Of a stretch of DNA of 64,000 bases, positions 15,539-64,000 are shown in pieces. The position numbers and the translations under genes were made by a program. The notes beneath the pieces are model-generated. The model was not told where the DNA came from and searched no databases. It was given only the letters and a program-made list of their open reading frames with translations. The DNA comes from Spongilla lacustris (Eukaryota; Porifera; Demospongiae; Spongillida; Spongillidae), in assembly GCA_949361645.1 (NCBI GenBank), contig OX442417.1:14063954-14127953 (forward strand), read 5' to 3'. Within the stretch, counting starts at the first letter, position 1. Each line of letters starts with the position of its first letter.

Positions 15539-16775
15539 ATAAAAGCATCACGGATATGTTTGAACCACATTTAGTTTTATAGCTGATTATGTCATAGTAT
15601 CCTATTATCCTCTTCAGGATAGTAATTGTGTTGAACAGTGTTGAAAAAATACGCTTAGCTTCATAGCAGTAGGTATTCTATTATCCTTTTGATTCTCTGA
15701 TGAACTAGTAATTAAATTAATTGACATGAAAAACAATTTGTAGCATAATTGCATTCCACTCCAAGTCCATACAAATCTATGGACCAGAAATGGCTTCATT
15801 TGACACCGCATCCACGAGAAACGCGGGAAATTTTTGGTGTCGAATATTCCCTCCTATCGTTGTTTTGATTTATATAATCAGAAAGCTCACCTATTTGTAA
15901 AGAGTAATTTATACTTTTTTTGGAATGGTCCTTTTATAAATGATTCCCTGTTACATGAAAAGATCGAACCGGTACATATATAGTTTTTGATGTGGTAAAT
16001 GCCCTCGGGTACACTTTTTTCAGGGTCACCACCTTGAGTATTACTGCATTCAACATTGATTACACAACTATAGCAGGGTGCATAAAGCAGTAAGTTACAA
16101 GACATTTTCGCTCGCGGTAGGCAGGGGGCGTGGTCCGTCCATCCAAAGGCAAGTTTTGCAAGTTTAACCAACAAATCTACCTGCATGGATTGAGTCATGG
16201 TCTGTTATTTAGTAAGACAAGAAGAAAGATTCTTAAAGTCTGTCCACGAATTCACTCGAGGTAATGCCGTTTTCTCTTTTCAATACCTTGCGCTGCATAT
16301 CACTCCTACCTTGAGAGTTGATTGCATGTTTTTAACTTAGAGCCTCAATTTTAAACCATTTTCCATACAGTTTTTGTAACGCTCTAGAAGGAATATGTTC
16401 GTAAAAAAAAAAAATCTGTACCTCTTACGCGATAAAGCTAGAACCACTCAACAGGCTATGCAATGGTATGTCTGTTTGAGATACAAAAAAAAAGGAATAT
16501 GCCTCATAATGGTACATGTAGTGAAATCTCCACTCAAAACCAAACAATTTTGTCTAGAGGGAATTAATCATTTCTCTGTTTGCCCCAAAAATTGCAAAAT
16601 GGGCTAAACTTCCCAGCGTTTCTTATGGATGCGGTGATAAACTGCTTCTGTCCAATAATCCGGAAAATTCACCAGCTGTTACTGAGGGGGAGGTGTTGCC
16701 ATATGAGCCAGGGTTAATTTCATTCAAGTAAATACGTCAATATTCTTAATTCAGCCAATCCATTAAAAACCCTAT
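15539..16775. other. Intergenic, nothing recognised
   Basis: AT-rich, with only short overlapping frames on both strands. No motif-bearing coding segment was seen. It separates the P450 3' end from the truncated receptor copy. Confidence 0.4.
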
Positions 16776-17909
16776 GAAGGTAATTGCGTCCTTTGTGAAC
16801 CTTGACCTTGGGCTCCCTCTGTTTCTATGATGGTATGGATGATGCTGACAAGGCTGGCCTTCAGTTTGTGTTCCCAGCCTACCTCCTCATCCTCACCATG
16901 ACAGTCATTGTGCTCTGCCACTACTTTTTTCAGAGATCTCCAACCTCCTCCGCTAGTTCCTGTTGGCCATGGTATAGCATCATAATAGGAGAAAGAGCAG
17001 TTGGTGTAATATCTACTCTCATCTACTTGTCATGTTCCAAATTGTTGAGAACTGTCATTGATGTTGTCACATATTCCACAGTCTACCTGCCCATTGCTGA
17101 CATGTATGTCTGGTTCTATGATTGAAGTATGGAATACCTTCATGGGACGCATACTGCTTTGTTTGTGGTTGCCATGGTGACATGTGCCCTGTAACCTCCT
17201 CCCATACACCTTTGCCATCACTTTCATTCCAATCATTGAATGGTACAGTGAACACAACAGACTGTTCAACTACATGTATATCCACAAGACGGCCAATCAG
17301 ATGAAACCAATGAATGATGCCCACTATGCCCCCTATAAGGGGAAGTGGCGATGGTGGCTGGGAGCAAGGCTTTGGCTTCTAGTTGTGATGTACAGTTTAA
17401 ATCCAGTGTATAGATCTGACAAGCCATCTCTGCTTCTGTCCATCCAGGCTATTGTGGTGATCTTGTTCACCATAGCACAAGCAGGAATAAAGCCATTTGG
17501 ACAGTCATATCAACAGAAAGATAAGCTCACCAGATATACCATCTTCTGCAACCAAATGTACAATTGTCTTGATCTGTTTTACCTCATCAACTATATTGCA
17601 CTAGCTATGTCGATGTCTTACATTCTAGAGCAGAGTTCAGACCAAGCACAGATGACTGTAGTATCTGTTGGTGTTTTGGTGGGTCTCTATGTAGTGGTGT
17701 TGATGGTGACTGTCTTGTACCATCTCATTGTGGTCATCCTCAAGGCTTGCAAGATGTATGACAGAGCCAGAGAGAAGATAAATGGATTATTTGAAAGGAA
17801 ACATGAATTAATGGTTCCTATAGAGCTGGATGACCCCTCCACCAATACTGTCAGCACCACCACTGTGACAGTCAACTTTGGTCTGAGGGAACCACCGTGT
17901 GAAGATTAA
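16776..17909 (+). pseudogene. 5'-truncated 3' end of the beta-helix/multi-pass receptor gene (copy 1)
   Basis: This is the C-terminal multi-pass domain of the 31745-37441 gene in the opposite orientation. It begins abruptly at the segment equivalent to KVIVSFVNLDLGLPLCFYDG with a one-base loss near 16822, and has an in-frame TGA at about 17123 after MYVWFYD. A further frame change near 17190 is followed by an open frame (17211-17909) through LGARLWLLVVMYSLNPVY to the shared C-terminus GLREPPCED. No beta-helix region is present. At least three lesions plus truncation make it a pseudogene, although the last 230 codons are well conserved. Confidence 0.88.
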
Positions 17910-22599: not shown

Positions 22600-23340
22600 T
22601 GATGTGTGTGCACTGTACTGTGTGTGTTACATGTAGGCTTTGATATGTACACTGTACTGTGTGTGTACCATGTAGGCTTTGATATGTACACTGTACTATG
22701 TGTGTACCATGTAGGCTTTGATATGTACACTGTACTGTGTGTGTTACATGTAGGCTTTGATGTGTACACTGTACTGTGTGTGTACCATGTAGGCTTTTGA
22801 TATGTACACTGTACTATGTGTGTACCATGTAGGCTGTGATATGTACACTGTACTGTGTGTGTACCATGTAGGCTTTGATATGTACACTGTACTGTGTGTG
22901 TACCATGTAGGCTTTGATATGTACACTGTACTGTGTGTGTACCATGTAGGCTTTGATATGTACACTGTACTGTGTGTGTACCATGTAGGCTTTGATATGT
23001 ACACTGTACTGTGTGTGTACCATGTAGGCTTTGATATGTACACTGTACTGTGTGTGTACCATGTAGGCTTTGATATGTACACTGTACTGTGTGTGTACCA
23101 TGTAGGCTTTGATATGTACACTGTACTGTGTGTGTACCATGTAGGCTTTGATATGTACACTGTACTGTGTGTGTACCATGTAGGCTTTGATATGTACACT
23201 GTACTGTGTGTGTACCATGTAGGCTTTGATATGTACACTGTACTGTGTGTGTACCATGTAGGCTTTGATATGTACACTGTACTGTGTGTGTACCATGTAG
23301 GCTTTGATATGTACACTGTAGTGTGGGTGTGTATCATGTA
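22600..23340. repeat. 39-bp minisatellite, about 19 copies
   Basis: The unit contains gatatgtacactgtactgtg, then tgtgtaccatgtaggcttt. Because 39 is divisible by three, long repetitive frames run through on both strands (211, 179 and 160 residues); these are repeat artefacts. The central copies (about 22830-23290) are essentially identical and the edge copies diverge, which suggests recent expansion. It lies just behind the last GH116 exon. Confidence 0.97.
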
Positions 23341-23344
23341 GGGG

Positions 23345-23640
23345 TTTCTGGGTAGATCAAAAGTGGTATTTCTCAGCATGGATAAGTAAATAATCAGTGG
23401 GCAGACAGAAGGGAAATACTAATTTGAGTAAGAATGTTTTCTTAGAAGGCAGTTAGCTGCTGCCTGATACACTATTCCATCATGTGGTGGTTGGTGATCA
23501 TCTCAATGGAGCCTACATCAACCCCTGTGGTGATGTACTCACTGCTAACCTCATCACATGACCTGGGTGTGGTCTGAGCCATTGTTGAATAAATGAGGGT
23601 GTGTCAAGGAAGCTTGTGCAATCATTTGTCAATTGACTGC
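23345..23640 (+). other. GH116-associated 3' segment, possible last-exon remnant
   Basis: tttctcagcatggataag and aataatcagtgggcag at 23371-23410 recur at 39535-39563 in the second block. 23495-23560 encodes DHLNGAYINPCGDVLTANL in the + frame, ending in a stop. It may be the tail of the GH116 gene, but no family motif proves it. Confidence 0.3.
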
Positions 23641-29927: not shown

Positions 29928-31458
29928 ACTGCTTTAGTTACCCTATTTCATGCGCACTTTCAGCCTTATACTCTGACGTCTATGTTTCATGGGTGTTCTA
30001 TTTATCATGGCGGCATTCCACGTGCAGTTTACATATTTGTATGATTACGAGTTCCATGCATCTGAAAATCTTCCTGCTGGGTCAGGTCGTCATGGGTTTG
30101 GGCACATGCAGTACGAGAAGATGGATCTAAAATGGAAGGTAAGCATGGTTCAGATGTGCTAGCCTGTTTTTACCCAATCCACCTGCCATGCATGCACAAC
30201 TGTTACACAATGAGCCAGTGGTAAATTTCATTCTCTCTCTGATGTGAATACCTTATCACATGGTGCTGCCAAGCATCCTCTAAAATGTAGGTGTGTGTGC
30301 TCTGCACTTTGCTCACTTACCACCATCTTTTTAGTAGTCACACAGCCTGACAGACAGTACCTGAGCAAGTTAGTGTAGATGGTTGTTTTCTGAATTCAAT
30401 GAGGTTTGGTAAGGTGATTTTTCAAAGCAAACTGTAAAAATATTGAACTGTATTACAGGTGTACAATGTCGCACAGTGAAGTCAAAAGTCTGAACTAAAC
30501 TAACTGGCTCAAGTAATACAAATTTCATTGAAGAGGTAACCGGCACGTTTTACGGGCACAAGCATGTTTATATAACCAATGTGTGAAGCTTAAACTGGCG
30601 GGGTTCTCCACACCACAAGGGGGTAAGGGCATGGTTACAGCCAGATGTTTATCATGCGTACAATATATTTTTCTGCACAAAGCTAAATGCATGTGTATGT
30701 ACCATTTACTGTTTTAGATTTGGTGTACACGTATACGCGTATAACTAACTACATGCACAAGTGTGTATGGTTCCTACACATACAAAGAAGCAGCATTACA
30801 TGTAGCTTAGATCCCCGTGGCAGCCTGCCTGACTTGATCGTACTCCACAGACATTTGTCCGCAACGTCCATCTGCCTCAATGAGCCAGTGACCTGAACGC
30901 AATTGATCTGTGTTCTCCGTATGAATGGTTGGCAAAGCTGTCCTAAATAGAAAGCATTATCAGGTGTCCCATTTTTGACATGTAATGCTGCAGCTACAAT
31001 TTGTATGGTACCGTACACATTTGTCATACAACACCACCATATGCATCGACATGTTTGTACCTTCATCCTCACATGACAGAGAATTGTGTGCTCATTGACA
31101 AAACTAACAGGTTGTGTCCATCCCTCCATCAAGGTAACATAACAAATCAAGGTTGAAGCTGTTATTCTGGCTAAGTGCAGGTATTACGTACACCCAGCAT
31201 AGTACATGTAAAAGAAGGGAAGAAGTTCAGGTAGGCGGGGCACGGAGTAGGAAATGAAATGTTTGAAAAGGGGTGGATTACAAAGCGCCGTGTACATAGC
31301 AAAGCCACGTATCAACAGTGAATTTCATCTAGAGAGGGGAGAAGTCAACCACAGGTAGGTTTGCTAAGTACACCAACAGTTTCTTCTGTACCAGGTGAAT
31401 ATAATTATTTTTCCGCTGGAGCGAAGGTGATAATTACCGCTGGAGCGAGCGGGTACTG
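29928..31458. repeat. Right long inverted arm of the pogo-like element
   Basis: Inverse of 26510-28040, ending gagcgagcgggtactg before the TA duplication. Confidence 0.92.
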
Positions 31459-31460
31459 TA

Positions 31461-31744
31461 CACACTATCTGAGCTAGCTGATCTTCTGAAGTGTGATTGG
31501 AAGCACCTGATAGCTATAGCATACACAGCCTTACATACATGCATGTACATTGAAGCACATCCCTATATCACTATAGCCTACATTGAAAGCTACCATCTGC
31601 TTTATTCTAATTTTCCAGCTCCTTTGTCTAACCATATCTTATGATGTTAACATTGTAACAAGTTCTATCAGCGTGCAGATCAGGCTTTTAACAGCACATA
31701 ATACCTAGTACTAACATGTCTGAACACTCTACATGGCATGTACT
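31461..31744. other. 3' flank of the beta-helix receptor gene
   Basis: ttctgaagtgtgattggaag followed by cacctgatagc at 31485-31515 recurs inverted at 41611-41642, another sign of segmental duplication. No coding sequence. Confidence 0.5.
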
Positions 31745-34700
31745 TTAATCTTCACACAGTGGTTCCCTCAGACCAAAGTTGACTGTCACAGTGGTGGTGG
31801 TGACAGTATTGGTGGTGCGGTCATCCAACTCTATAGGAACCTCAAATTTTTCTCGTCTCCTTTCAAATAATCCATTTATCTTCTCTCTGGCTCTGTCATA
31901 CATGTTGCAAGCCTTGAGGATGACCACAATGAGATGGTACAAGACAGTCACCATCAACACCACTACATAGAGACCCACCAAAACACCAACAGATACTACA
32001 GTCATCTGTGCTTGGTCTGAACTCTGCTCTAGAATGTAAGACATTGACATAGCTAGTGCAATATAGTTGATGAGGTAAAACATGTCAAGACAATTGTACA
32101 ATTGGTTGTAGAATATGGTATATCTGGTGCATCTATCTGTCTGTTGATGTGACTGTCCAAATGGCTCTATTCTTGCCTGTGCTATGGTGAACAAGATCAC
32201 CACAGTAGCCTGGATGGACAGAAGCAGAGATGGCTTGTCAGAACTATACACTGGATTTAAACTGTACATTGCAACTAGAAGCCAAAGCCTTGCTCCCAGC
32301 CACCATCGCCACTCCCCCTTATAGGAGGCATAGTGGGCATCATTCATTGGTTTCATCTGATTGGCCTTCTTGTGGAGATAGTTGAACAGTCTGTTGTGTT
32401 CACTGTAGCGTTCAATGATTGGAATGAAAGTGAGGGCAAAGGTGTAGGGGAGGAGGAACAGGGTACATGTCACCATGGCAACCACAAGCAGAATAGTATG
32501 CTTCCCATGAAGGTATTCCACATTTCCATCAAAGAACCACACATACATGTCACCAGTGGGCAGGTGGACTGTGGAATATGTGAAAACATTAATGACATTT
32601 CTCAACAATTTAGAATATGACAAGTAGATGAGAGTAGATAGGACACCAACTGCTCTTTCTCCTCTTATGATGGGAAATCTATACCAACTGGAACTAGTGG
32701 AGGAGGTTGGAGATCTCCGAAGACAGTAGTGGCAGAGCACAATGGCTGTCATGGTAAGGATGAGGAGGTAGGCTGGGAACACAAATTGAAAGCCAGCCTT
32801 GTCAGCATCATCCATACCATCATAGAAACACAGAGGGAGCCCAAGGTCAAGGTTCACAAAGGACACAATCACCTTCATAGGGTTTAAAATGGATTGGCTG
32901 AAGAATGTTGAAGTATTGACTTGAATGATGTTGGCATAGAAGATGAGCCCATAGAGTGTGCCTTGTGTTACAGTGAGGTTGAGGAAGAACAGTGCTGCCA
33001 CCAGTAAGACACCCAGCACTGCAAACATCACAAGTGTGATCAGCCACATATCTGTGCATACCTGGCACTTGGAAGAACCAAAGATCACACTATAGTTACC
33101 ATGGCAATGACCACAAACAATGCCAGTACGCCCTTTATTGCACAAGTCCCCAGGGTTACCTAGAGACAGCTTATTTATGGTACTATTACAGTAGTCCAAA
33201 GGACAGGTTGAAGCCAGTGCTGGAAGAGTGTTATTGTACACACCAACCCAGTTAATTTTATTATTTCTAGTCACAGTACTATCTGATATATCACAGACCA
33301 CTCCAAGTGATGTGAAGAACAGCGAACAGTCACACTTTATCACACCAGTAGAAGATAGTGTGAACCCTGGCTCACATGGTAACAGCTCCACCTCAATGAC
33401 AGCTGGTGAATTATCAGGGTTAGTATTGGACAGAAGCAGTTTAAATGAAGCCATTTTTGGTCCATATATTTGGTACTCTATCATTCCACATACTGTTCCT
33501 ATCCACTGAGCCTCCTGCCGTGGTCCAAGTGTTATGTTTTGAGAGGTAATACCACTGGTATCAATTTGTGTGTAAACCACACTGGGTGATAGGTTGTTTC
33601 CACCATCAACTGAGGTAACATTAAGTTTCACAGTCCCACCAGGATATGTGGTAACCTTTCCTTGGTACTGACTTGTGACATTGCACAACTTAGGGTCCGT
33701 ACAGCCACACAAGAGCACATGTGCTGGAGAGGAGAGTACTTGGGTGTGATTGTCATCCTCGGGTAATGATGTGATTGTGAAATAGCTAGTCAGTGCCTTA
33801 TAAGAATGGATTAAAGTGTCATGTTTTTCAATAGAAGTATAGCAATCATAAATGGGTGTGGCATATACAGCATGACCACCTTGCTGTGCATGGTTATCAG
33901 TGAAGGTGATGGAGAAACTTCTGGGCTCAAAACAAAATGTGGAAGTATAACTACAAATGAAGCGTATGATACAAAGGTGGAAACGATTATTGCTTTTTTG
34001 ACCCCAATCATTGTAGATAGCACCACCAAATCCAGTTGCTACATTTCTGGAAAATTCCACTCTACACTCCTCATAGAAGTACAGTGGGACATCGTTAGAC
34101 AGGCTTATGGCCCCTCCTTTCACTCCTTTGTTCTCTGTGAATGTGATGTTACCCTGCAGCAGCAGGAAACCATTTTGTCCTTGAATGGCCCCTTGGGCAG
34201 AGTTAGATGAGAACTGACTCTCTGTGGGGGTGTTTCCAAAGATGTCCACCTTCACTCCATCAAAGTAAATAGCCCCTCCCCCAGAGCAGTGGTTATCTTT
34301 AATAACCACATCCTGGAGAAGGAGGTGGCCTAATGTCTCTAATATGCCGTACCTATCATTTTCATTTATAACATACATGTAAAGTGCTGCTCCATAGAAT
34401 GCTGTGTTTTTAGTAAATGTGCAGTCTGTGATGTTAACATTGCCTGATGATTTTTCCAACATCACACCACCCCCAGCATAAGCAGCACTGTTATTTTGAA
34501 ATGTGCAGTATGTGATGTTAACATTGCCATGTGATCCATCCAACATCACACCACCACCACCACCACCACCATCAGTAGCACTGTTATTCTGAAATGTGCA
34601 GTATGTGATGCTAACATTGCCTTGTGATCCATACAATGCCACAGCACCACCACCATTAGTATGAAGAATGATTGTAACATTAATAGCAAATTTTCTTGTA

Positions 34701-37441
34701 AAAATGTTGTTGTGAAATGTGCAGTTTATGAAACTAACATAGCCTTGTGATCCATCCAACATTACAGCACCACCACCACCAGTACCAGTAAATACAACAA
34801 AATTAAAACCACCACCAACATAAGTAGCACTGTTGTTCTGAAATGTACAGTATGTGATGTTAACGTAGTCTTGTGATCCATTTAAAAGGACAGCACCACC
34901 ACCAAGACCACCAGAAATGACCATAGTACTGCCAACACCATCATAAGTAGCACTGTTGTTCTGAAATGTACAGTATGTGATGCTAACGTAGTCTTGTGAT
35001 CCATATACATGGACAGCACCACCACCAGCATCACCCAAAATGGCACTAGCATTACCACCAACATAAGTAGCACTGTTGTTGTGAAATGTACAGTATCTGA
35101 TGTTAACGTAGTCTTGTGATCCATTTAAAAGGACAGCACCACCACCAAGACCACCAGAAATGACCATAGTACTGCCAACACCATCATAAGTAGCACTGTT
35201 GTTCTGAAATGTACAGTATGTGATGCTAACGTAGTCTTGTGATCCATATACAAGGACAGCACCACCACCAGCATCGCCCAAAATGGCAACAACATCACCA
35301 CCAACATAAGTAGCACTGTTGTTGTGAAATGTACAGTATATGATACCAACGTAGCCTTGTGATCCATTGAAAAGGATAGCACCCCCACCACCACCAAAAA
35401 TGACCATAGTACTGCCAACGCCATAAGTAACAACGTTGTTCTGAAATGTACAGTATGTGATGCTAACGTAGTCTTGTGATCCATTTAAAAGGACAGCACC
35501 ACCACCAAGACCACCAGAAATGACCATAGTACTGCCAACACCATCATAAGTAGCACTGTTGTTCTGAAATGTACAGTATGTGATGCTAACGTAGTCTTGT
35601 GATCCATATACATGGACAGCACCACCACCAGCATCACCCAAAATGGCAACAACATCACCACCAACATAAGTAGCACTGTTGTTGTGAAATGTACAGTATG
35701 TGATGTTAACGTAGTCTTGTGATCCATTTAAAAGGACAGCACCACCACCAAGACCACCAGAAATGACCATAGTACTGCCAACACCATCATAAGTAGCACT
35801 GTTGTTCTGAAATGTACAGTATGTGATGCTAACGTAGTCTTGTGATCCATATACAAGGACAGCACCACCACCAGCATTGCCCAAAATGGCAACAACATCA
35901 CCACCAACATAAGTAGCACTGTTGTTGTGAAATGTACAGTATGTGATGTTAACATAGTCTTGTGATCCATTTAAAAGGACAGCACCACCACCAAGACCAC
36001 CAGAAATGACCATAGTACTGCCAACACCATCATAAGTAGCACTGTTGTTCTGAAATGTACAGTATGTGATGCTAACGTAGTCTTGTGATCCATATACAAG
36101 GACAGCACCACCACCAGCATTGCCCAAAATGGCAACAACATCACCACCAACATAAGTAGCACTGTTGTTGTGAAATGTACAGTATGGGATGTTAACATAG
36201 TCTTGTGATCCATTTAAAAGGACAGCACCACCACCAAGACCACCAGAAATGACCATAGTACTGCCAACACCATCATAAGTAGCACTGTTGTTCTGAAATG
36301 TACAGTATGTGATGCTAACGTAGTCTTGTGATCCATATACATGGACAGCACCCCCACCACCACCAATAATGTACATAGCACTGCCAACACCATTATAAGT
36401 AACAATGTTGTTGTGAAATGTACAGTATATGATACCAACGTAGCCTTGTGATCCATTGAAAAGGATAGCACCCCCACCACCACCAAAAATGACCATAGTA
36501 CTGCCAACACCATAAGTAACAACGTTGTTCTGAAATGTACAGTATGTGATGCTAACGTAGTCTTGTGATCCATATAAAAGGACAGCACCACCACCAGCAT
36601 CGCCCAAAATGGCACTAGCATTACCACCAACATAAGTAGCACTGTTGTTGTGAAATGTACAGTATGTGATGTTAACGTAGCCTTGTGATCCACATAAAAG
36701 GACAGCACCACCACCACCACCAAAAATGCCCATAGCACTGCCAACACCATTGTAAGTAACAATGTTGTTGTGAAATGTACAGTATATGATACCAACGTAG
36801 CCTTGTGATCCATTCAAAAGGACAGCACCACCACCACCACCAAAAATGACCATAGTACTGCCAACACCATCATAAGTAACAATGTTGTTGTGAAATGTAC
36901 AGTATGTGATGTTAACATAGTCTTGTGATCCATTAAAAAAGACAGCACCACCACCACCACCAGCATCAATTAAAGAAATTGCAGTACTGCGAGCACTATC
37001 ATAAGTAGAAATGTTGTGAAATGTACCTTGCAATCCATTCAAAAGGACACCACCACCACCAGTAGCACTGTTATTCAGAAATGTGCAGTTTGTGATGCTA
37101 ACATCACCTTGTGATCCATCCAACATCACAGCACCACCATAAGTAGCACTGTTGTTCTGAAATGTGCAGTTTTTTATGCTAACAATATCTGTTGATCCAT
37201 TCAACATCACAGCACCACCATAAGTATAAGTAGCACTGTTGTTCTGAAATACACAACTGGTGATGTCAATGTTGGTACTTGATTGTGACGATATCGCTCC
37301 CTGGTCCATTGAACCGCTCTGAAATGTGCAGTTAGTGATAACAGTATATTCTATCGATACCAATTGTATACCACAGCTAATGAATGTCATTCTCTCAATG
37401 GTCAACTTTTGTATTGAGTTGAATCGTAGCACTCTCCCTTC
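31745..37441 (-). CDS. Giant beta-helix (Pmp-like) ectodomain, multi-pass membrane receptor-like protein
   Basis: One uninterrupted exon of about 1,895 codons. The first ~1,000 residues are about 30 right-handed beta-helix coils of the form YVSITYCTFQNNSATYDGVG with GGGAV turns, as in Chlamydia Pmp-type adhesins and parallel beta-helix proteins. Many coils are exact duplicates in 243-bp (two-coil) units at 34880-36810. A Cys-rich part follows (CEPGFTLSSTGVIKCDC, CNKGRTGIVCGHCHGNYS), then about nine hydrophobic spans from WLITLVMFAVLGVLLVAALF to VLVGLYVVVLMVTVLYHLIV, and a cytosolic tail ending GLREPLCED. It is probably a surface adhesion or sensing protein; the ligand is unknown. The frame is closed upstream by TAA, so an upstream exon is required; a signal-peptide exon lies at 38720-38569 but is split by a transposon. 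Truncated copies lie at 16776 and 39795. Confidence 0.88.
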   Translation of the reverse strand, partial: EGRVLRFNSIQKLTIERMTFISCGIQLVSIEYTVITNCTFQSGSMDQGAISSQSSTNIDITSCVFQNNSATYTYGGAVMLNGSTDIVSIKNCTFQNNSATYGGAVMLDGSQGDVSITNCTFLNNSATGGGGVLLNGLQGTFHNISTYDSARSTAISLIDAGGGGGAVFFNGSQDYVNITYCTFHNNIVTYDGVGSTMVIFGGGGGAVLLNGSQGYVGIIYCTFHNNIVTYNGVGSAMGIFGGGGGAVLLCGSQGYVNITYCTFHNNSATYVGGNASAILGDAGGGAVLLYGSQDYVSITYCTFQNNVVTYGVGSTMVIFGGGGGAILFNGSQGYVGIIYCTFHNNIVTYNGVGSAMYIIGGGGGAVHVYGSQDYVSITYCTFQNNSATYDGVGSTMVISGGLGGGAVLLNGSQDYVNIPYCTFHNNSATYVGGDVVAILGNAGGGAVLVYGSQDYVSITYCTFQNNSATYDGVGSTMVISGGLGGGAVLLNGSQDYVNITYCTFHNNSATYVGGDVVAILGNAGGGAVLVYGSQDYVSITYCTFQNNSATYDGVGSTMVISGGLGGGAVLLNGSQDYVNITYCTFHNNSATYVGGDVVAILGDAGGGAVHVYGSQDYVSITYCTFQNNSATYDGVGSTMVISGGLGGGAVLLNGSQDYVSITYCTFQNNVVTYGVGSTMVIFGGGGGAILFNGSQGYVGIIYCTFHNNSATYVGGDVVAILGDAGGGAVLVYGSQDYVSITYCTFQNNSATYDGVGSTMVISGGLGGGAVLLNGSQDYVNIRYCTFHNNSATYVGGNASAILGDAGGGAVHVYGSQDYVSITYCTFQNNSATYDGVGSTMVISGGLGGGAVLLNGSQDYVNITYCTFQNNSATYVGGGFNFVVFTGTGGGGAVMLDGSQGYVSFINCTFHNNIFTRKFAINVTIILHTNGGGAVALYGSQGNVSITYCTFQNNSATDGGGGGGGVMLDGSHGNVNITYCTFQNNSAAYAGGGVMLEKSSGNVNITDCTFTKNTAFYGAALYMYVINENDRYGILETLGHLLLQDVVIKDNHCSGGGAIYFDGVKVDIFGNTPTESQFSSNSAQGAIQGQNGFLLLQGNITFTENKGVKGGAISLSNDVPLYFYEECRVEFSRNVATGFGGAIYNDWGQKSNNRFHLCIIRFICSYTSTFCFEPRSFSITFTDNHAQQGGHAVYATPIYDCYTSIEKHDTLIHSYKALTSYFTITSLPEDDNHTQVLSSPAHVLLCGCTDPKLCNVTSQYQGKVTTYPGGTVKLNVTSVDGGNNLSPSVVYTQIDTSGITSQNITLGPRQEAQWIGTVCGMIEYQIYGPKMASFKLLLSNTNPDNSPAVIEVELLPCEPGFTLSSTGVIKCDCSLFFTSLGVVCDISDSTVTRNNKINWVGVYNNTLPALASTCPLDYCNSTINKLSLGNPGDLCNKGRTGIVCGHCHGNYSVIFGSSKCQVCTDMWLITLVMFAVLGVLLVAALFFLNLTVTQGTLYGLIFYANIIQVNTSTFFSQSILNPMKVIVSFVNLDLGLPLCFYDGMDDADKAGFQFVFPAYLLILTMTAIVLCHYCLRRSPTSSTSSSWYRFPIIRGERAVGVLSTLIYLSYSKLLRNVINVFTYSTVHLPTGDMYVWFFDGNVEYLHGKHTILLVVAMVTCTLFLLPYTFALTFIPIIERYSEHNRLFNYLHKKANQMKPMNDAHYASYKGEWRWWLGARLWLLVAMYSLNPVYSSDKPSLLLSIQATVVILFTIAQARIEPFGQSHQQTDRCTRYTIFYNQLYNCLDMFYLINYIALAMSMSYILEQSSDQAQMTVVSVGVLVGLYVVVLMVTVLYHLIVVILKACNMYDRAREKINGLFERRREKFEVPIELDDRTTNTVTTTTVTVNFGLREPLCED
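34880..36815. repeat. 243-bp tandem units inside the beta-helix coding region
   Basis: Near-identical 243-bp (81-codon) blocks start at about 34882, 35125, 35485, 35728 and 35971 and continue to 36813 with half-unit variants. Each block is one CTFQNNSATYDGVG coil and one CTFHNNSATYVGG coil. All changes preserve the reading frame. The low divergence indicates recent duplication or gene conversion. Confidence 0.92.
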
Positions 37442-37784
37442 TTATGGGGCTTGGGGTGCTGAAGCCATGGAGTCATTGTCATGTCTGGCCTCTCGCCTAG
37501 CAACCAATAGCGAGCATTGTATTACAAAATCAAACAATTATGTACCTTGTAGTCAGAAGGTTTTAAGACACTTTCATTATGAAACCTAGCATGCTAAGCC
37601 TAAATATTATACACAGCAGTGATTTGAAAAATAACTTTAGTCATACTTGAAATACTATCTTGCTATATAATGACAAACTACTTTGACATTTTACACAGCA
37701 ATGATGTCACTTTGTACCACCGCATTTGTTTATGTAATCACGAACAAAGGTTGAAACCCCGACCTAGCAAGCATCTAGCTATCA

Positions 37785-38720
37785 AAAAATGTTGCATGGC
37801 GGTCCTGAAGATATGCGATGCTCTCCGTCGTCCAACCAGTGGCGAGGTGGCCGGGGGGGCAGGGGGGGCAGTTGCCCCCCCAGCTGGCCTTAAAAAGGGG
37901 GCGCCAAAATGACGATAGGGGCGCACCAGCCGGCAAGCAAACTACACGAAATGTGTTTAATGAAGATGATTATTTATGTAGTATAGAGTCATAATGCTGG
38001 GGACGAGTTCATCAATGCGAACGTCGGCGATCGGAGGAAAGAAGGCGGGATTTTACCCCACGTGATATATGTTTGTTACGTAATAGTACGGTTACGTACG
38101 TCCAAGTACATTGCTCTATACATGTAGTTGTAAATAGTTCCGGCCAAAACTTCGGCGGCTTGACTGATGTCATGAGATCTAGAATCGGCTACGTGTTAAT
38201 TGCTACCAGTTTTTGTTGTTATCGTGCTGCTCGAACAGAGGGCACTATTTATTGGTGCATGTTGATTGCCTTAGTTTCCAATACAATCTGTGGAAAAATT
38301 AGAACGTGCACCACAAAAAATTTCGCGCGCTTCGCGCGCACCCTTCCCTGGCGTCGACGCGTCAATTATCTACGTGGAACCCACCCCCTCCTCGCCAAAA
38401 TCCTGCATCCGCCCCTGTAACGAGATATGAAATTCTGACAGAAAGTGTGTTTATGTCTGTGTGCGTGGGGGAGGGGGGGGGGGGGGGGGGGGGCGGGGGG
38501 GGGGGGGGCGGCAGTCTGTGTATTTGCCCCCCCAGTGACAGACAAGCCACCTCGCCACTGCGTCCAACACAACAGTCGTATTGGACTTGAGCGGTCCGCT
38601 GCATAGGTAGTCCTGTAGAGCATAGCCAGGTGGAATGGTAGCGGTGAGGTTGACCTCATCGGACATAACAACCACGTAGCTCCCAAGAACAGATAAAACA
38701 AGTACCATCTGAATCATCAT
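37785..38720 (-). pseudogene. 5' signal-peptide exon of the beta-helix receptor, split by a hAT insertion
   Basis: From an ATG at 38720 the minus strand reads MMIQMVLVLSVLGSYVVVMS, a good secretory signal peptide. It continues to GYALQDYLCSGPLKSNTTVV, the N-cap that precedes the beta-helix in this type of protein. The exon is interrupted at 38561 by a 724-bp element. Removing the element and one copy of the 8-bp duplication lets the frame continue LDDGEHRISSGPPCNIF at 37836-37785, followed by TGA after a T6 run. The uninterrupted exon would lead towards the large exon at 37441. The insertion, and perhaps the TGA, suggests this copy is now disabled or uses another start. Confidence 0.7.
37837..38560. 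mobile_element. hAT-type non-autonomous element, 724 bp
   Basis: Inverted termini CAGTGGCGAGGTGGC and GCCACCTCGCCACTG are flanked by an exact 8-bp duplication, cgtccaac, at 37829-37836 and 38561-38568. CAG..CTG ends plus an 8-bp target site are diagnostic of the hAT superfamily. It contains runs of G/C (38467-38510) and no transposase frame. It lies inside the receptor's signal-peptide exon. Confidence 0.92.
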
Positions 38721-39075
38721 TACTTCGGCTCTATATGACGGCCCTCCAGGTAGAGCAGCTGCATTATATACCATGAGAAGCTGCATTAAGTACGGTTTTG
38801 CGGTTGGACTTGAGCAGATTCCAAATATCACTATTTGCTCTATGGCAGTATAAGTTAGCATTAAAATAAATGTAGGTTGATAGTGATATGTTATGTGTGA
38901 GTATGTAAGTGACTGAATGATGTATTCATTACTTCATGTCCACAGATTACTGATACATCTGGGGGAGTTTTATTCTACCTGAAAATAACTGTTTTTGCCT
39001 TCTACATGTACAAAAGGCTTTGGAAATAAACTGAGTATGTAGTACACCACGTATAATGAAGACTGATTGGTTTAG
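38721..39075. other. Upstream of the receptor 5' exon, putative promoter side
   Basis: No supported gene. The minus frame stays open to 38861 upstream of the chosen ATG, but the extra residues before MMIQ do not look like a signal peptide. No specific promoter element can be named. Confidence 0.35.
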
Positions 39076-39375
39076 GGATTATTTGAGCCAAGGTCTGGGC
39101 ACCTGTTGCATTGCCCTTCATTCTTGCCATCCTAAGCAAGCTGCCACACCTTGTTTGTAGAGACCAAAGAGCAGGGAGAGGCACTATTATGATCCCTCTG
39201 ATGGGAGGAATACTACCATGTTCCCACTGGGGGAGGGGCATCACCAAGTTCCCACTGGGGGAGGGGCATCACCATGTTCCCACTTGGGGAGGGGCATCAC
39301 CATGTTCCCACTGGGGGAGTGGCATTACCATGTTCCCACTGGGGGAGGGGCATTGCCTTGCATTATGTCCTATTC
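39076..39375. repeat. Inverted duplicate of 23655-23850 with a 27-bp tandem array
   Basis: The word gttcccactgggggaggggc plus atcacca is repeated five times at about 39219-39350. The unique flanks are the reverse complement of the segment near 23760-23850. Frames through it are artefacts. Confidence 0.88.
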
Positions 39376-39790
39376 AGATCAAATGCATTTAGCCACACCC
39401 AGGCGACACCCAGGTCATGTGATGAGGTTATCAAAGCCTAAAGTGTACATGGTGCAAATGTTCCACTGTTTCCATGCAGCACTGGCCATGCACCACTATG
39501 TCTTTTCTGGGTATATCACCTCAGATGTGGGCTTTCTCAGCATGGATAAGGGAATAATCAGTGGGCAGCCATACATAATTGTCTACATGTAATAGCCTGG
39601 GTGTGGTCTGGGTTGTGGCTAATGTTCACCATGTACACATCTAATGTTCACCATATATCTGTACACATCTAACACAATATAAAATAGCCAACAATTGAGT
39701 AAAGAATGGATTACAGAAATAATACATGCAATAACTATTACATTTTGTAATTCCAGATAGGTAGATTTGCTAAATAATGTAGGTCTGTGT
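39376..39790. other. Duplicated GH116-block spacer
   Basis: The + frame from 39449 reads MVQMFHCFHAALAMHHYVFS and continues to SMDKGIISGQ. tttctcagcatggataag is shared with 23371. It could be a decayed exon, but no family was recognised. Confidence 0.3.
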
Positions 39791-39794
39791 AAGT

Positions 39795-40527
39795 TTAATG
39801 TGGCTGCCTTGGTGACATGTACACTTTCCTTTCTCCCCTACATCTTTAATTGCCCTCACTGTCATTCTAATCATTGACACAACAGACTGTTCAACTATCT
39901 CCACAAGAAGGCCAATCAGATGAAACCAATGAATGATGCCCACTATGCCTCCTATAAGGGGAGTAGCGTTGGTGGCTGGGAGCAAGGCTTTGGCTTCTAG
40001 TTGCAATGTACAGTTTAAATCCAGTGTATAGTTCTGACAAGCCTTATCTGCATCTGTCTATCCAGGCTACTGTGGTGATCTTGTTCACCATAGCACAAGC
40101 AGGAATAAAGCCATTTGGACAATCACATCAAAAGACAGATACATGCACCAGATATACCATCTTCTACAACCAATTGTACAATTGTCTTGACCTGTTTTAC
40201 CTCATCAACTATATTGCACTAGCTATGTCAATGTCTTACATTCTAGAGCAGAGTTCAGATCAAGCACAGATGACTGTAGTATCTGTTGGTGTTTTGGTGG
40301 GTCTCTATGTAGTGGTGTTGATGGTGACTGTCTTGTACCATCTCATTGTAGTCATCCTCAAGGCTTGCAAGATGTATGACAGAGCCAGAGAGAAGATAAA
40401 TGGATTATTTGAAAGGAAATATGAATTAATGGTTCCTATAGAGCTGGATGACCCCACCACCAATACTGTCAGCACCACCACTGTGACAGTCAACTTTGGT
40501 CTGAGTGAACCACTGTGTGAAGATTAA
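39795..40527 (+). pseudogene. 5'-truncated 3' end of the beta-helix/multi-pass receptor gene (copy 2)
   Basis: It starts in the middle of the membrane domain with frame changes: RLFNYLHKKANQMKPMNDAH is recognisable at 39885-39940, then a lesion near 39965. An open frame runs 40006-40527 from MYSLNPVYSSDKP to GLSEPLCED and the stop. It closely matches both the - strand gene (31745) and copy 1 (17390-17909). All ectodomain sequence is missing. It could at most encode the last three or four membrane spans and the tail; treated as a pseudogene. Confidence 0.85.
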
Positions 40528-40569
40528 AGTACTTAAGATACACCAACAATACACATACATAACCTACAA

Positions 40570-40880
40570 TTCTACAAAGCACCTGCTAATTCTCTTTCTA
40601 AAATGGCCCTGGCCACCGATCGCACAACAGATAAGTTGAGATGGCCACAGATCTCTGAAGCCATTTTTGCTTTAGAGCACACTGTGCCAGATATGGTATT
40701 ATTCCATGGCAAGTGGAATATGAGACTGTCCCAACTCCTGGCACTTGAGAGATCATTAGCAGCATGTTTGCTCAGCTCAGCTGCAAAGGCTGCTGCCACT
40801 AGCTTTCTTTATAGTGGAACAGATGCAACTGTTACATCAAAGGCAGCTGGTTTTCCTCTGTCCCAGGAGTTGACATGACC
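40570..40880 (-). pseudogene. LINE-like 3' domain relic
   Basis: Minus strand: GKPAAFDVTVASVPL near 40850, AAAFAAELSKHAAND near 40795, and SVVRSVARAILERELAGAL at 40630-40572. It has the same AAFD-V and KH-AND signature as the relic at 24440-24760, so it belongs to the same family of non-LTR elements. Its mid part contains an unrelated or frameshifted stretch. Confidence 0.78.
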
Positions 40881-41735
40881 TTTGGCTAGCCCATTTCCCC
40901 CCTACCTCCTGAAAGGTGGGCATGCTGACAAAATGCAGCAAAAATCAGACATGTGCACACACTGCAAATAAGTTGGTCAACGTGACAAGCTAAAGTAGGT
41001 TTTAAGGTCTCCACTACATATTTGAAACCAAACTTTGTCCATCGTTTTGTTTTATTTTTTTTTCAAACCCTCCTAATGGTTAGATGTTTGAACTAGTCTT
41101 TTAAGATTGGAGGAGAGCATTTGAGCATACAGCCACGTGGTCTACATATCTGCTGGCATCCAAATATGCCATCTAGAGCTGGTAGATACTGTCAAGTAGG
41201 TGTTTACAGTTACCAAAGTATTTACTGACGTACCTTTGAAAAATTTTCTCTTCCTCATAAAGATGGCTTCAGTTTGCTGTCAGAAAAACCTTCTTACCAA
41301 GTAAAGCTACACCTGTGGCACATTTTTAAGGTTCTGCAGTGCTAATTTTATTAACTGATACATTTGAGGTGTTTTTATAGTTACTGACATTCACCTTTGA
41401 AACATACCAATTTCAGTTGATCTTTCTCAACATGCATGGCTATGCAGTAGCACATGCCAAGTGAAATTTCTATGTGCATGCATGACCAAATGTAAGGACA
41501 ACTAAATATAGCAAATTTTTGAGTCAAAAACCCAGCTGTCAAGAACATATAGAACTTATGAAAGTGCTTAGTTATTCTGAACAAGTATATATCAAAAGTT
41601 AAGGCTGTGGATGCTATCAGGTGCTTCCAATCACACTTCAGAACACCACCCTTGGCAACAACTAGTTATTAAAGGTGACAAATGCACCATAGTGATTTTC
41701 AGCTGTATTTAATTTAAATAGTATGCTTTTGGCAG
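40881..41735. other. Non-coding stretch
   Basis: No supported exon. 41611-41642 is the inverted copy of 31485-31515. Confidence 0.4.
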
Positions 41736-41969
41736 TGGAGAACAAAAGAGCTAAATGTGTTGGACTTTGGCTTTGCCTACAATTCCGATCTCCTCCCCAT
41801 GCTGCTGCTTTTATTTATGTTGTCCCAACTCCAAGACAGAGTCTTCACCTTGAACAAAGTGAGCTCCAAGTGGTGGGTGTGGCTCAGCCAAGGGATCCCA
41901 CTGTCCATCATACTAGTTCTAGCAGGTGTGAAGGGGACATTATATCATGACACTATTTTCAAACATCAG
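41736..41969 (+). CDS. Single exon of an unidentified membrane protein
   Basis: Between a good acceptor (tgcttttggcag) and donor (cag|gtaaca), the + frame is open for 78 codons: WRTKELNVLDFGFAYNSDLL, then a hydrophobic PMLLLLFMLSQL, a hydrophilic QDRVFTLNKVSSKWW, and a second hydrophobic SQGIPLSIILVLAGVKGTL. This looks like two membrane segments joined by a short loop. The phase at both ends is zero. No partner exon was found. It precedes the GH116 exon but nothing links it to GH116. It may be an exon brought in by the segmental duplication. Confidence 0.4.
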
Positions 41970-42104
41970 GTAACAGTGCTGTAGATTATACTTAATGCCA
42001 TTTTACTCACAGTATTGCCATGGCAACAATGTACAAAACAGTACACCACAACAATATGATGATAATGCTGTAATGGTATTTGTATTTGTATTTGTGCATG
42101 AGTC

Positions 42105-42609: not shown

Positions 42610-43206
42610 TGGCATAGGAGGTAGGTGTGTGCATGGTGTGTGCATGATGGTAGGTAGGTGTGTGCATGATGGGAGGTGTGTGTGTGCATGATGGGAGGTA
42701 GGTGTGTGCATGATGGTAGGTAGGTTTGTGCATGATGGGAGGTATAGGTGTGTGCATGATGGGAGGTAGGTGTGTGCATGATGGGAGGTGTGTGCATGAT
42801 GAGAGGTGTGTGCATGATGGGAGGTATAGGTGTGTGCATGATGGGAGGTGTGTGCATGATGGGAGGTATAGGTGTGTGCATGATGGAGGTATAGGTGTGT
42901 GCATGATGTGAGGTATAGGTGTGTGCATGATGGGAGGTGTGTGCATGATGGGAGGTGTGTGCATGATGGTAGGTAGGTGTGTGCATGATGGGAGTTGTCT
43001 GTGTGTGCATGATGGTAGGTGTGTGCATGATGGGAGGTGTCTGTGTGCATGATGGGAGGTAGGTGTGTGCATGATGGGAGGTAAGTGTGTGCAGGATGGG
43101 AGGTATAGGTGTGTGCAGGATGGGAGGTATAGGTGTGTGCATGATGGGAGGTAGGTGTGTGTATGATGGGAGGTGTGTGCATGATGGAAGGTATAGGTGT
43201 GTGCAT
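42610..43206. repeat. Minisatellite of the same unit as 1-715
   Basis: About 28 copies of tgtgtgcatgatgggaggta-type units with 2-4 bp length variants. Frames of 221-236 residues on the minus strand (SCTHLPP...) are repeat translations. Located in the former intron right after the GH116 copy B exon. Confidence 0.96.
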
Positions 43207-51398: not shown

Positions 51399-51849
51399 TG
51401 TTCAGCCAGGCGTATCGCTTTTTACGAATTGATTGTAGACAAAGGCTAGGCTAGCAACAACAACAACAACAAAAAAAAGTATGCGGGATGTCCCTCCTCA
51501 CTTTAAAGTGGTAACAATCACTTGTTTGCGCTCCCGGTGATTATCTATTGGAACGTCCACGACGCCATAATTCGGTATAGGTGTTTTGATTATTATTATT
51601 CAGTATTACTATTTTATTCTTTTACCGCTATAACTCAGTAACTTGAATCCAAACACATTTAAAATACTCAACTATTATTATTGTAACTATTATCCATATA
51701 CATGTACAAAATTACAGGGGAAAAAATAATCTTCACTGAATGTCTTCACTGAATGCTGGCCAACAGAATTAACCCATTACAGATACAGCGTATCCTCAGC
51801 GGACAGCATTTGAAGCAGGTAAGAGCCTAGGAATTGTACTCTCCCGGTG
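51399..51849. other. 5' flank of P450-B
   Basis: Contains an aac trinucleotide run at 51449-51470 and AT-rich sequence. The promoter of copy B is expected here but no element can be defined. Confidence 0.4.
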
Positions 51850-52724
51850 CAGTGTTGCCGCGGTCCACTACTTTTCAGTGGACCGTGGACCGCGGTCAAA
51901 CCTAAGTAGCCAGACCGTGACCGGACCGCGACCGTGCACAAATCAAACAATCCAGGACCGTGACCGTCGGTCGGACCGACGGTCGGACCGCGGTCCACAA
52001 TGCTGATAATATAAATCCAAGAAAGGCAATGCAAATGCAACAATGACAACACATACATACACACACACATTATGAAACATACAACAAAGTACAAAGTCTG
52101 AAAAAACAATGCTATTTCCAGAAGTATTGATTGTGGCGTAAGTCTTTCTGGAAGCAGGCGCCATCTTTTTTTGTCGGTTATGTTTTTGGCCGTGGAAAAA
52201 ACCCTTTCAGAGGAAGCTGATGAAGCGGGGATGGCCAAGTATTTTTTTGCAAGCACTGATATAATGGAATAATTAGTAGCATTAACAGACCACCAGTTAA
52301 GTGGGTCCAATCCTGTCAGATGATCTGACTCTGGCACTGCCAGATACCTACATGTACAAATCAACATTATCATAATACATAACATTTCAACATTCATTTT
52401 TGAAGTACCTTTTTAGTTCTTCATCAACACGATCATCAACAGTGTTAGACTGAAAATAGCTGTGTTGGTGTTGGTAAAGCAAAACTGAAAAGTAACTTTG
52501 CTTCCTCAAACACACTTGACAGCTTTGTCTTCTTTTGTCCATGCGTATTTAGGCGTGGGTACGAGGGGGACCGCGGTCAGACCGTCGGTCCAGTACTGCT
52601 TGGACCGTGACCGTCCGTGACCGTCCGTGAATGAAAATAATAAGGACCGAGGCTCGCGGTCCAGCTAAAAATGGCGAGGACTGCGGTCCGGACCGTCGGT
52701 CCCGGTCGGACCGCGGCAACACTG
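51850..52724 (-). mobile_element. hAT element, 875 bp, internally deleted, carrying only the C-terminal dimerisation domain
   Basis: The termini CAGTGTTGCCGCGGTCC and GGACCGCGGCAACACTG are exact inverses, flanked by the 8-bp duplication tcccggtg (51842-51849 and 52725-52732). Subterminal zones on both sides are packed with ggaccg/cggtcc motifs. On the minus strand, about 52345-52110, a hATC domain is recognisable: DPLNWWSVNATNYSIISVLA, then KKYLAIPASSASSERVFSTA. The BED finger and RNase-H-like catalytic core are missing, so it is non-autonomous. Confidence 0.93.
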
Positions 52725-63324: not shown

Positions 63325-63480
63325 AGGGACAGAGGGGGGGAGGGAGTGAGGGAGGGAGGGAGGGAGGGAGGGAGGGGAGGGAGGGAGGGAGGGGAGGGAG
63401 GGAGGGGAGGGAGGGAGGGAGCATGAGCAATGTGGAGGGGAGGGAGGGAGGGAGCATGAGCAATGTGGAGGGAAGATGGA
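63325..63480. repeat. (GGGA)n purine repeat with an embedded duplicated 36-bp block
   Basis: Runs of gggaggga; the block gcatgagcaatgtggagg occurs twice (63420, 63451). It interrupts the stalk-coding frame. Confidence 0.92.
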
Positions 63481-63544
63481 AGGGGGATGAGTGACTGCGA
63501 CAACGCATGTAATCAGATTGGAAGATTCAACTATGCTAAGTGTG

Positions 63545-63868
63545 ATGTTGTAATGAGCACACCTCTAAGATGTGAACATGTTGTAGTGAGCACACCTCTA
63601 AGATGTGAACATGTTGTAGTGAGCACACCTCTAAGATGTGAACATGTTGTAGTGAGCACACCTCTAAGATGTGAACATGTTGTAGTGAGCACACCTCTAA
63701 GATGTGAACATGTTGTAGTGAGCACACCTCTAAGATGTGAACATGTTGTAGTGAGCACACCTCTAAGATGTGAACATGTTGTAGTGAGCACACCTCTAAG
63801 ATGTGAACATGTTGTAGTGAGCACACCTCTAAGATGTGAACATGTTGTAGTGAGCACACCTCTAAGCT
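63545..63868. repeat. 33-bp minisatellite, about 9-10 copies
   Basis: The unit contains gtagtgagcacacctctaag, then atgtgaacatgtt; copies are almost identical. The 11-codon periodic frames on both strands are artefacts, although whether the SRCR stalk reads through cannot be excluded from this window alone. Confidence 0.95.
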
Positions 63869-64000
63869 GTGGGGGACTAACCAGGGCACAAGTGGCGCAA
63901 AATCACCAGGGCCCACTGACGATAGGAGCCCATTATTACTCCACATATGTAGAAGCCTACAATCGATGAATTTAATTAGTTAATAAAAGTCCCTCCCCCC

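Follow-up and report, generated by a model that had tools for sequence, protein, structure and literature searches.

We analysed a stretch of 64,000 nucleotides from chromosome 3 of the sponge Spongilla lacustris (contig C3, positions 14063954-14127953), in the following called the window, to which coordinates refer unless stated otherwise. On its minus strand, the window carries the coding sequence of a protein with a Pmp-type beta-helix and a predicted multi-span membrane domain. We tentatively read this window copy as one disrupted member of a large sponge family of recognition or adhesion receptors whose helix coils are gained and lost in frame, a reading to which we give slightly less than an even chance. 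The proposed family architecture consists of a signal peptide, a cap, a Pmp-type helix of gene-specific length, an immunoglobulin (Ig)/macroglobulin-like domain, a cysteine-rich stalk, a predicted nine-span domain and a LREPL(L/C)E tail. In the window copy, these parts and the interrupting sequences are arranged as follows:

38562..38720, minus strand: signal peptide and first 53 residues (MMIQMVLVLSVLGSYVVVMSDEVNLTATIPPGYALQDYLCSGPLKSNTTVVLD), located by tblastn with residues 1-53 of the relative P0004 (94% identity).
37837..38560, no strand assigned: hAT-like non-autonomous element of 724 bp inside the coding sequence, with a 15-bp terminal inverted repeat (CAGTGGCGAGGTGGC).
37782..37836, minus strand: continuation of the N-terminal cap (DDGEHRISSGPPCNI), from the alignment to an intact neighbour and the reading frame.
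37443..37781, no strand assigned: second lesion, where 339 bp without family counterpart replace about 57 bp of cap coding sequence (alignment).
31745..37441, minus strand: open frame of 1898 uninterrupted codons for helix, Ig-like domain, stalk, membrane domain and tail; the open reading frame (ORF) with GTG start has 1895 aa (31745-37432).
34560..36962, minus strand: amplified block of long-loop coils, i.e., a two-coil (243-bp) unit with alternating types A and B (Tandem Repeats Finder, coil alignment).
33368..33736, minus strand: predicted Ig/macroglobulin-like beta-sandwich (residues 16-138 of model 2, see below).
33056..33376, minus strand: cysteine-rich stalk with cysteines kept family-wide (alignment of 92 sequences).
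31910..33046, minus strand: membrane domain with nine long predicted helices (model 2; helix limits and hydropathy).
31748..31771, minus strand: conserved tail end LREPLCED (comparison with relatives).

The ORF matches the right-handed beta-helix family Beta_helix (E 2.8e-36) as well as Chlam_PMP (PF02415; E 2.9e-27, 92.2 bits vs. a cut-off of 20.6) in Pfam. For the window copy itself, the helix is assigned by the Beta_helix match, and the structure prediction of this part was done on the family member P0004, which also matches TIGR01376 of NCBIfam (E 6.9e-11). The full-length model of P0004 (43 sequences) has a mean predicted local distance difference test (pLDDT) value of 61 and a predicted template-modelling score (pTM) of 0.51. 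Within its helix (residues 31-340), block pLDDT is mostly 80-96; most of the membrane part stayed below 50 in this first model and was improved by a second model with 92 diverse sequences. When compared with the PDB, the P0004 model gave three matches at E 0.001 or better, all of which are beta-helices (two PL6 lyases and AlgE4), with low template-modelling (TM) scores of 0.12-0.16 relative to the long query.

Model 2, which covers the membrane part of the window copy, reaches a mean pLDDT of 87 and a pTM of 0.82. Its helix 4 is followed by a beta-hairpin that should be extracellular under the inferred sidedness, and several of its membrane helices are polar. The beta-helix and membrane bundle anticipated by the original prediction were both recovered by structure prediction, the helix in the P0004 model and a nine-helix domain in the window-copy model. 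The cysteine-rich segment was likewise found as predicted: C193, C198, C223, C226, C239 and C242 (numbering of a 678-residue piece) are invariant in the 92 aligned sequences. A sequence search of the PDB with the C-terminal profile gave no match and one with the whole ORF only a single chance-level match (E 0.25), while the structure lists for the membrane part were filled by matches of the Ig-like domain and named no fold for the membrane helices. Neither Rfam (over 30000-42000) nor a genome-wide search with the PF02415 profile, which is only 19 positions long, yielded a match. We conclude that a Pmp-type beta-helix is fused to a polytopic, probably nine-span domain.

This fusion is shared by many proteins. 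Three protein searches, each drawing on a set limited to about 8000 candidates, with the best 120 listed, gave 918, 290 and 889 relatives. Beta-helix/Pmp domains occur in 120/120 of the listed close and 107/120 of the listed distant relatives, which were found via the C-terminal part or the family profile. The fusion, which had been put forward as unusual, is thus real but not a one-off. Even relatives with 27-33% identity keep the C-terminal domain in the alignment. The named relatives are from Ephydatia muelleri, and some of the others are genes of this Spongilla genome. Scanning prokaryotic genome contigs and viral contigs with two short peptide patterns provided 39 and 53 pattern matches, respectively, none of which is a relative of the C-terminal domain. 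We therefore rejected a bacterial origin or contamination, given also that the window lies inside a 17.78-Mb chromosome.

We also computed a tree of the C-terminal domain, using 11 of the 14 examined genes of this genome. Here, 14 close Ephydatia proteins are united in a clade that contains no gene of this genome (support 0.958), which argues for separate expansions in Ephydatia and Spongilla. A fifteenth Ephydatia protein (P0189) is placed in a deeper branch. The 11 Spongilla genes, in turn, cluster together with four unnamed proteins (support 0.569).

With regard to the C-terminal end, the tail LREPLCED would be cytoplasmic if the nine spans hold. The pattern REP[LVIWC] is found within the last 45 residues of 97/114, 35/56 and 32/81 C-terminally complete proteins from the three lists, after dropping 3+3, 45+19 and 17+21 truncated or motif-less proteins. 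When none are dropped, [RK]E[PS][LVIWF] is found within the last 60 residues of 99/121 (window included), 56/120 and 53/119 proteins, compared to 109/5950 when tails of the third list were shuffled. Even very distant family members retain the LREPL end. To our knowledge, it matches no standard sorting motif and is neither a dileucine nor an NPxY signal. We consider it a candidate short binding motif.

Within the genome, the C-terminal domain was found at no less than 86 places on nine contigs, a lower bound since 86 of 520 candidates were scored. No stop interrupts the match in 73/86 places, while 13/86 show stops, and 22/86 are clustered within C3:13.16-14.10 Mb. We examined 14 genes, most of them picked for long open frames and including the window copy. 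The whole architecture is encoded by a single frame from signal peptide to tail in 12/14; the two others are the window copy and L023, whose frame contains a stop. Of the 86 places, L021 (C3:13294000-13301500) has the longest frame, which comprises 42 coils and 2128 aa and is open from signal peptide to tail. A neighbour at window-relative -82789 to -79331 is a single frame from signal peptide to tail, and neighbour A carries the whole architecture with 6 coils in one open frame. Judged from these sequences, the family is lineage-expanded and mostly intronless. Two incomplete copies, both found by tblastn, lie in the window itself:

16639..17906, plus strand: 5'-truncated, frameshifted family copy.
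39800..40524, plus strand: 5'-truncated family copy with broken frame, just upstream of the window gene on the opposite strand.

Among six other copies, the C-terminal domain is constrained, with ratios of non-synonymous to synonymous substitution rates (dN/dS) of 0.25-0.50 (15 pairs). The proportions of non-synonymous and synonymous differences (pN/pS) between coils of four genes have ratios of 0.80-1.44, two of these values being based on 4 and 10 pairs. Coil number differs between some near-identical paralogues and not between others (L023 was omitted from this comparison due to its broken frame). Differing pairs are L030 (11 coils) and L032 (13 coils), which are 99.6% identical over the last 1488 bases, as well as L025 (19 coils) and L026 (21 coils) with 98.8% identity of the C-terminal DNA. 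Among the close database proteins (116 of 120 used), 16/16 pairs with at least 97.5% C-terminal identity differ in coil number, 11 between named Ephydatia proteins and 5 involving P0077. Pairs of equal number are, however, hidden by the merging of proteins above 90% identity in the database, which biases this count. A comparison of individuals through database proteins was abandoned, as P0001, P0025 and P0027 are identical over their full length to genes of this genome; P0002 and P0003 differ from such genes by four extra start residues only. The variation in coil copy number between individuals that the original prediction suggested is not supported by the data of this single assembly.

The original prediction treated 31745-38720 as a single intact gene, which does not hold for the window copy: the 724-bp insertion and the second lesion separate its signal-peptide piece (38562-38720) from the ORF. 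At 38808-38561, the DNA is 96% identical to an intact neighbour. The insertion follows the signal peptide within the coding sequence, starts with CAGTGGCGAGGTGGC and ends in the reverse complement of CAGTGGCGAGGTGGC. Its flanks carry a target duplication of 8 bp without mismatch (gttggacg, 38561-38568 and 37829-37836), after whose second copy the cap codons resume. A genome search, in which 40 of 639 candidates were scored, revealed 39 other near full-length copies with 84-98% identity to the window copy; 33/40 scored copies (window copy included) match over exactly 1-724. The target duplication (inspected for the window copy of the element only), the short terminal inverted repeats and the dispersed copies with the same ends are hAT-type features, and our assignment to the hAT superfamily relies on characteristics that we take to be typical of it. 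No transposase was seen within the 724 bp, although no search was aimed at one. For the 339 bp of the second lesion, no further copy was found within the 264 kb searched. Elsewhere in the window, an ORF at 28678-29553 matches a DDE_1 superfamily endonuclease (PF03184, E 9.3e-17) and one at 51780-52397 the hAT C-terminal dimerisation region (PF05699, E 4.6e-17).

Introns of the family as the cause of the split 5' end were rejected, since 12/14 genes are continuous there and the insertion shows a target duplication and genome-wide copies. With 12/14 examined genes being single frames, the interruptions are lesions rather than family introns. Reading the sequence by eye also revealed no obvious in-frame splice pair that joins the signal peptide to the ORF. 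The 5' disruption is probably recent. Because the signal peptide is cut off by the hAT-like insertion and the second lesion, the window copy itself probably yields no surface protein.

The original prediction counted about 30 Pmp-like coils in the ectodomain, many of them exact duplicates in frame-preserving 243-bp blocks. Pmp-type coils are indeed present, while a strict count ([CSN].F..N) yields 26 within the ORF. For 34560-36962, Tandem Repeats Finder reports a period of 243 with 9.9 copies or of 120 with 19.8 copies, both multiples of 3. The coils of this central block are 39-42 residues long, and the order of its 18 coils of 39-41 residues is ccAccBABABABcABABc. DNA identities are 94-100% among A coils, 98-100% among B coils and 80-85% between A and B. 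The longest exact repeat has 232 bp with a spacing of 243; among the 16 exact repeat pairs of at least 100 bp, 7 are spaced at whole multiples of 243 and 9 are not. The array and its exact repeats of up to 232 bp are thus as described, but just two coil pairs (9/11 and 12/19) are identical in DNA. The six A copies vary at 8/120 bases and the six B copies at 4/123, with 10/12 of these sites at first or second codon positions.

The loops of the window gene are long, with a median of 17 residues when measured from FxxN to GGA (a simple pattern that also catches a few non-repeat stretches). In six other genes of the genome, the medians are 5 (five genes) and 9.5 (one gene), and 11 is the highest median reached by any of the relatives P0001-P0120 with at least four measurable loops. 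The window loops are also hydrophobic, such that three of them are flagged by the hydropathy scan. When the genome was searched with one 243-bp unit (40 of 142 candidates scored; 322 matches, listed in part), 13 overlapping or adjoining stretches of the window gene matched at 83-100% and one at 74%. Other genes reached at best about 72-73% along the unit, with short pieces up to 86%, among the matches listed. Since no other listed gene matches at comparable identity, the unit appears to have been made and amplified within the window gene, as far as this search shows. In the comparison of whole coils, those of the window gene have a median likeness of 79% among each other vs. 55-60% to the coils of seven paralogues, whereas the C-terminal domain shares 91-95% DNA identity with the same seven.

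In the proposed mechanism, the intact family proteins would act as cell-surface recognition or adhesion receptors. Loops on one helix face may bind microbial or cell-surface ligands, probably glycans, and the conserved membrane domain and tail may relay the contact inwards, be it as a signal, as an ion flux or through uptake. Coil number would change in frame, with unequal exchange as the probable cause, such that the binding rod would evolve faster than the membrane part. In this view, the array of long-loop coils specific to the window copy would have been amplified recently.

Beyond this family, some observations concern other parts of the window and its surroundings. A Ser/Thr-rich, mucin-like protein of 448 aa is encoded at 54396-55742, with one C-terminal hydrophobic segment, a basic tail ending in KKKEVTYHPGFY and no match in Pfam. 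A 417-aa frame with the same KKKEVTYHPGFY ending is found about 33 kb further on (window-relative 87761-89014). Coding-looking minisatellites are located at 22744-23379, 42635-43206 and 63463-63969 (PTWYTHSTVYISK-type repeats, a 22-bp array of 26.5 copies and STPLRCEHVV repeats). Long frames with HHAHT/PSCTH-type repeats span window-relative -2133 to 779.

Among known systems, chlamydial Pmps (PF02415/TIGR01376) are one of those closest to the sponge family. In the passages of PMC10715098 devoted to them, they are described as regular right-handed beta-helices with FxxN and GGA motifs, a variable number of rungs and variable loops that exit one helix face between FxxN and GGA, all of which is mirrored in the sponge proteins, for the helix by prediction. 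In contrast, the sponge family is an animal one, mostly intronless and present at 86 or more places in one genome, and its members carry an Ig-like domain, a cysteine-rich stalk and a helical membrane domain in place of the autotransporter barrel. No C-terminal autotransporter beta-barrel is among the Pfam or NCBIfam matches; helices are predicted instead. PF02415 lists more than 100 non-chlamydial species (PMC10715098), and section 9 of the same review names Pmp-like motifs in Trichomonas, Phycisphaerae and Methanobrevibacter, not in sponges.

Trichomonad Pmp-like proteins, of which 48 are given for T. vaginalis in PMC6701047, are like the sponge family eukaryotic, expanded and membrane-anchored, with Pmp repeats and a cytoplasmic tail. 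As described there, they have a transmembrane domain and NPx[YWF] tail motifs, whereas nine spans are predicted for the sponge proteins, whose tail bears LREPL; NPx[YWF] is absent from the 54-residue tail of the window ORF. Sponge aggregation factors combine Calx-beta and Wreath domains. They are a sponge gene family as well, yet Calx-beta is not matched here; PMC5450542 discusses the aggregation factors for adhesion and allorecognition. Within open-licence full text, with most searches listing the best 8-20 of many papers, we found no paper on sponge members of the Pmp-helix/nine-span family, none pairing 'outer membrane protein pmp' with Porifera and none pairing sponge with PF02415. The Ephydatia genome paper (PMC7385117) refers to tandem duplication in general terms, and its main text lacks the words 'beta-helix', 'membrane protein' and 'allorecognition'.

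Several observations weigh against our reading of the window copy as a disrupted member of a receptor family with evolving coils. The nine spans named by the original prediction stand as nine helices of the structure model, but a plain hydropathy scan detects only five spans, and 4/9 model helices score below 1.5. Loops of type B show no variation within the window array, such that the loops are not uniformly diversifying. The claim of actively homogenising repeats is borne out by the window gene, whose coils are alike while its C-terminal domain is shared with paralogues; strong within-gene likeness is, however, seen in 1/8 genes compared. For the seven other genes, coil likeness within and between genes is similar (L021 and L031: 77-78% within, 76% between), and strong homogenisation is therefore a trait of the window gene rather than of the whole family. 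Furthermore, 3/5 close paralogue pairs have equal coil numbers, namely L028/L029 (99.6%, 11 each), L024/L027 (99.8%, 16 each) and L022/L024 (96.7%, 16 each). Finally, the window copy shows an excess of amino-acid changes among its private substitutions (29 non-synonymous and 8 synonymous vs. 115:74 in seven others, p = 0.06; vs. 85:51 in five cluster genes, p = 0.08), which is only suggestive.

An alternative is that the array is neutral, i.e., GGT-rich coil DNA that slipped and duplicated like a minisatellite, before or after the 5' break, with frame-keeping as a by-product of coil-sized units. We hold this to be nearly an even bet. It would fit the disrupted 5' end, the restriction of the array to the window gene, the excess of pN over pS among the window coils (0.133 vs. 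0.092) and the dN/dS of the window C-terminal domain, which is 0.47-0.75 relative to six other copies and thus above the range among those six. On the other hand, the 1898 codons contain neither stop nor frameshift, the periods are divisible by 3 and the excess of non-synonymous changes falls short of significance (p = 0.06). In-frame differences in coil number are also seen between intact-looking paralogues, and L021 keeps 42 coils in an open frame; amplification is therefore not confined to broken copies.

Roles of the family other than recognition of microbes or cell surfaces were also considered. The membrane part might be distantly related to TRP-like channels of fungi and protists (Pkd2/Flc, which we take to be the PF06011 family), with the helix as a tethered gating sensor; we regard this as unlikely. 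In these channels, an Ig-like domain precedes the membrane part, and we know of none with a Pmp helix. The possible likeness in membrane fold comes from a weak Foldseek match to a Megaviridae model termed 'transient receptor potential ion channel', aligned over 466 columns (TM 0.31 of query and 0.47 of target, probability 0.91, E 0.25), with two other Megaviridae proteins at 0.45-0.49 of target (E 4.6e-3 and 3.4e-2), and the several polar membrane helices would suit a channel. However, no viral model matches at E 0.001 or better, the PF06011 profile finds no match at E 1 in 21 family members and the PDB lists are taken up by the Ig-like domain. A purely structural role as adhesin or matrix rod, without sensing, which we rate as distinctly unlikely, would account for a long rigid beta-helix, and Pmp-type proteins of Trichomonas raise adhesion according to PMC6701047. 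Yet, the conserved multi-span domain and tail exceed the needs of an anchor, and the trichomonad proteins are described there with a transmembrane domain and sorting motifs only. It is very unlikely, in our view, that the family tells self from non-self tissue by helix length and loop sequence. The multigene cluster, the lineage-specific expansion and the coil-number differences between some near-identical paralogues would agree with such allorecognition, but dozens of open copies per genome are at least as much in keeping with a set of microbe receptors, and all five database proteins that were compared come from this very assembly. Moreover, the Amphimedon paper on the transcriptome after grafting (PMC5450542) does not use 'outer membrane', 'pmp' or 'beta helix' in its main text. 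Between the two, we favour recognition of microbes or cell surfaces, given that data from one assembly do not bear on individuals and that the large repertoire per genome fits many ligands.

Sponges show precise tissue recognition and microbe handling, yet their receptors are poorly known. The family has the usual marks of a recognition repertoire, i.e., many copies, clusters, lineage-specific expansions, a fast-changing ectodomain and a constrained membrane part. Here, an ectodomain type best known from Chlamydia is combined with a membrane domain without assigned fold. The window provides a clear case of birth and death, in which a gene-specific new array is found in a copy broken by a mobile element. 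It is possible, though we consider it doubtful, that the family represents an undescribed class of animal recognition receptors in sponges, with Pmp-type helices of evolvable length, a nine-span and possibly channel-like domain and a conserved tail. Each genome would hold dozens to hundreds of its genes, most of them without introns, and diversity would arise as coils are added or removed in frame and, in some genes, as a gene-specific pair of loops is homogenised. If true, this would be a length-and-loop code unlike the Ig, LRR, SRCR or NLR repertoires.

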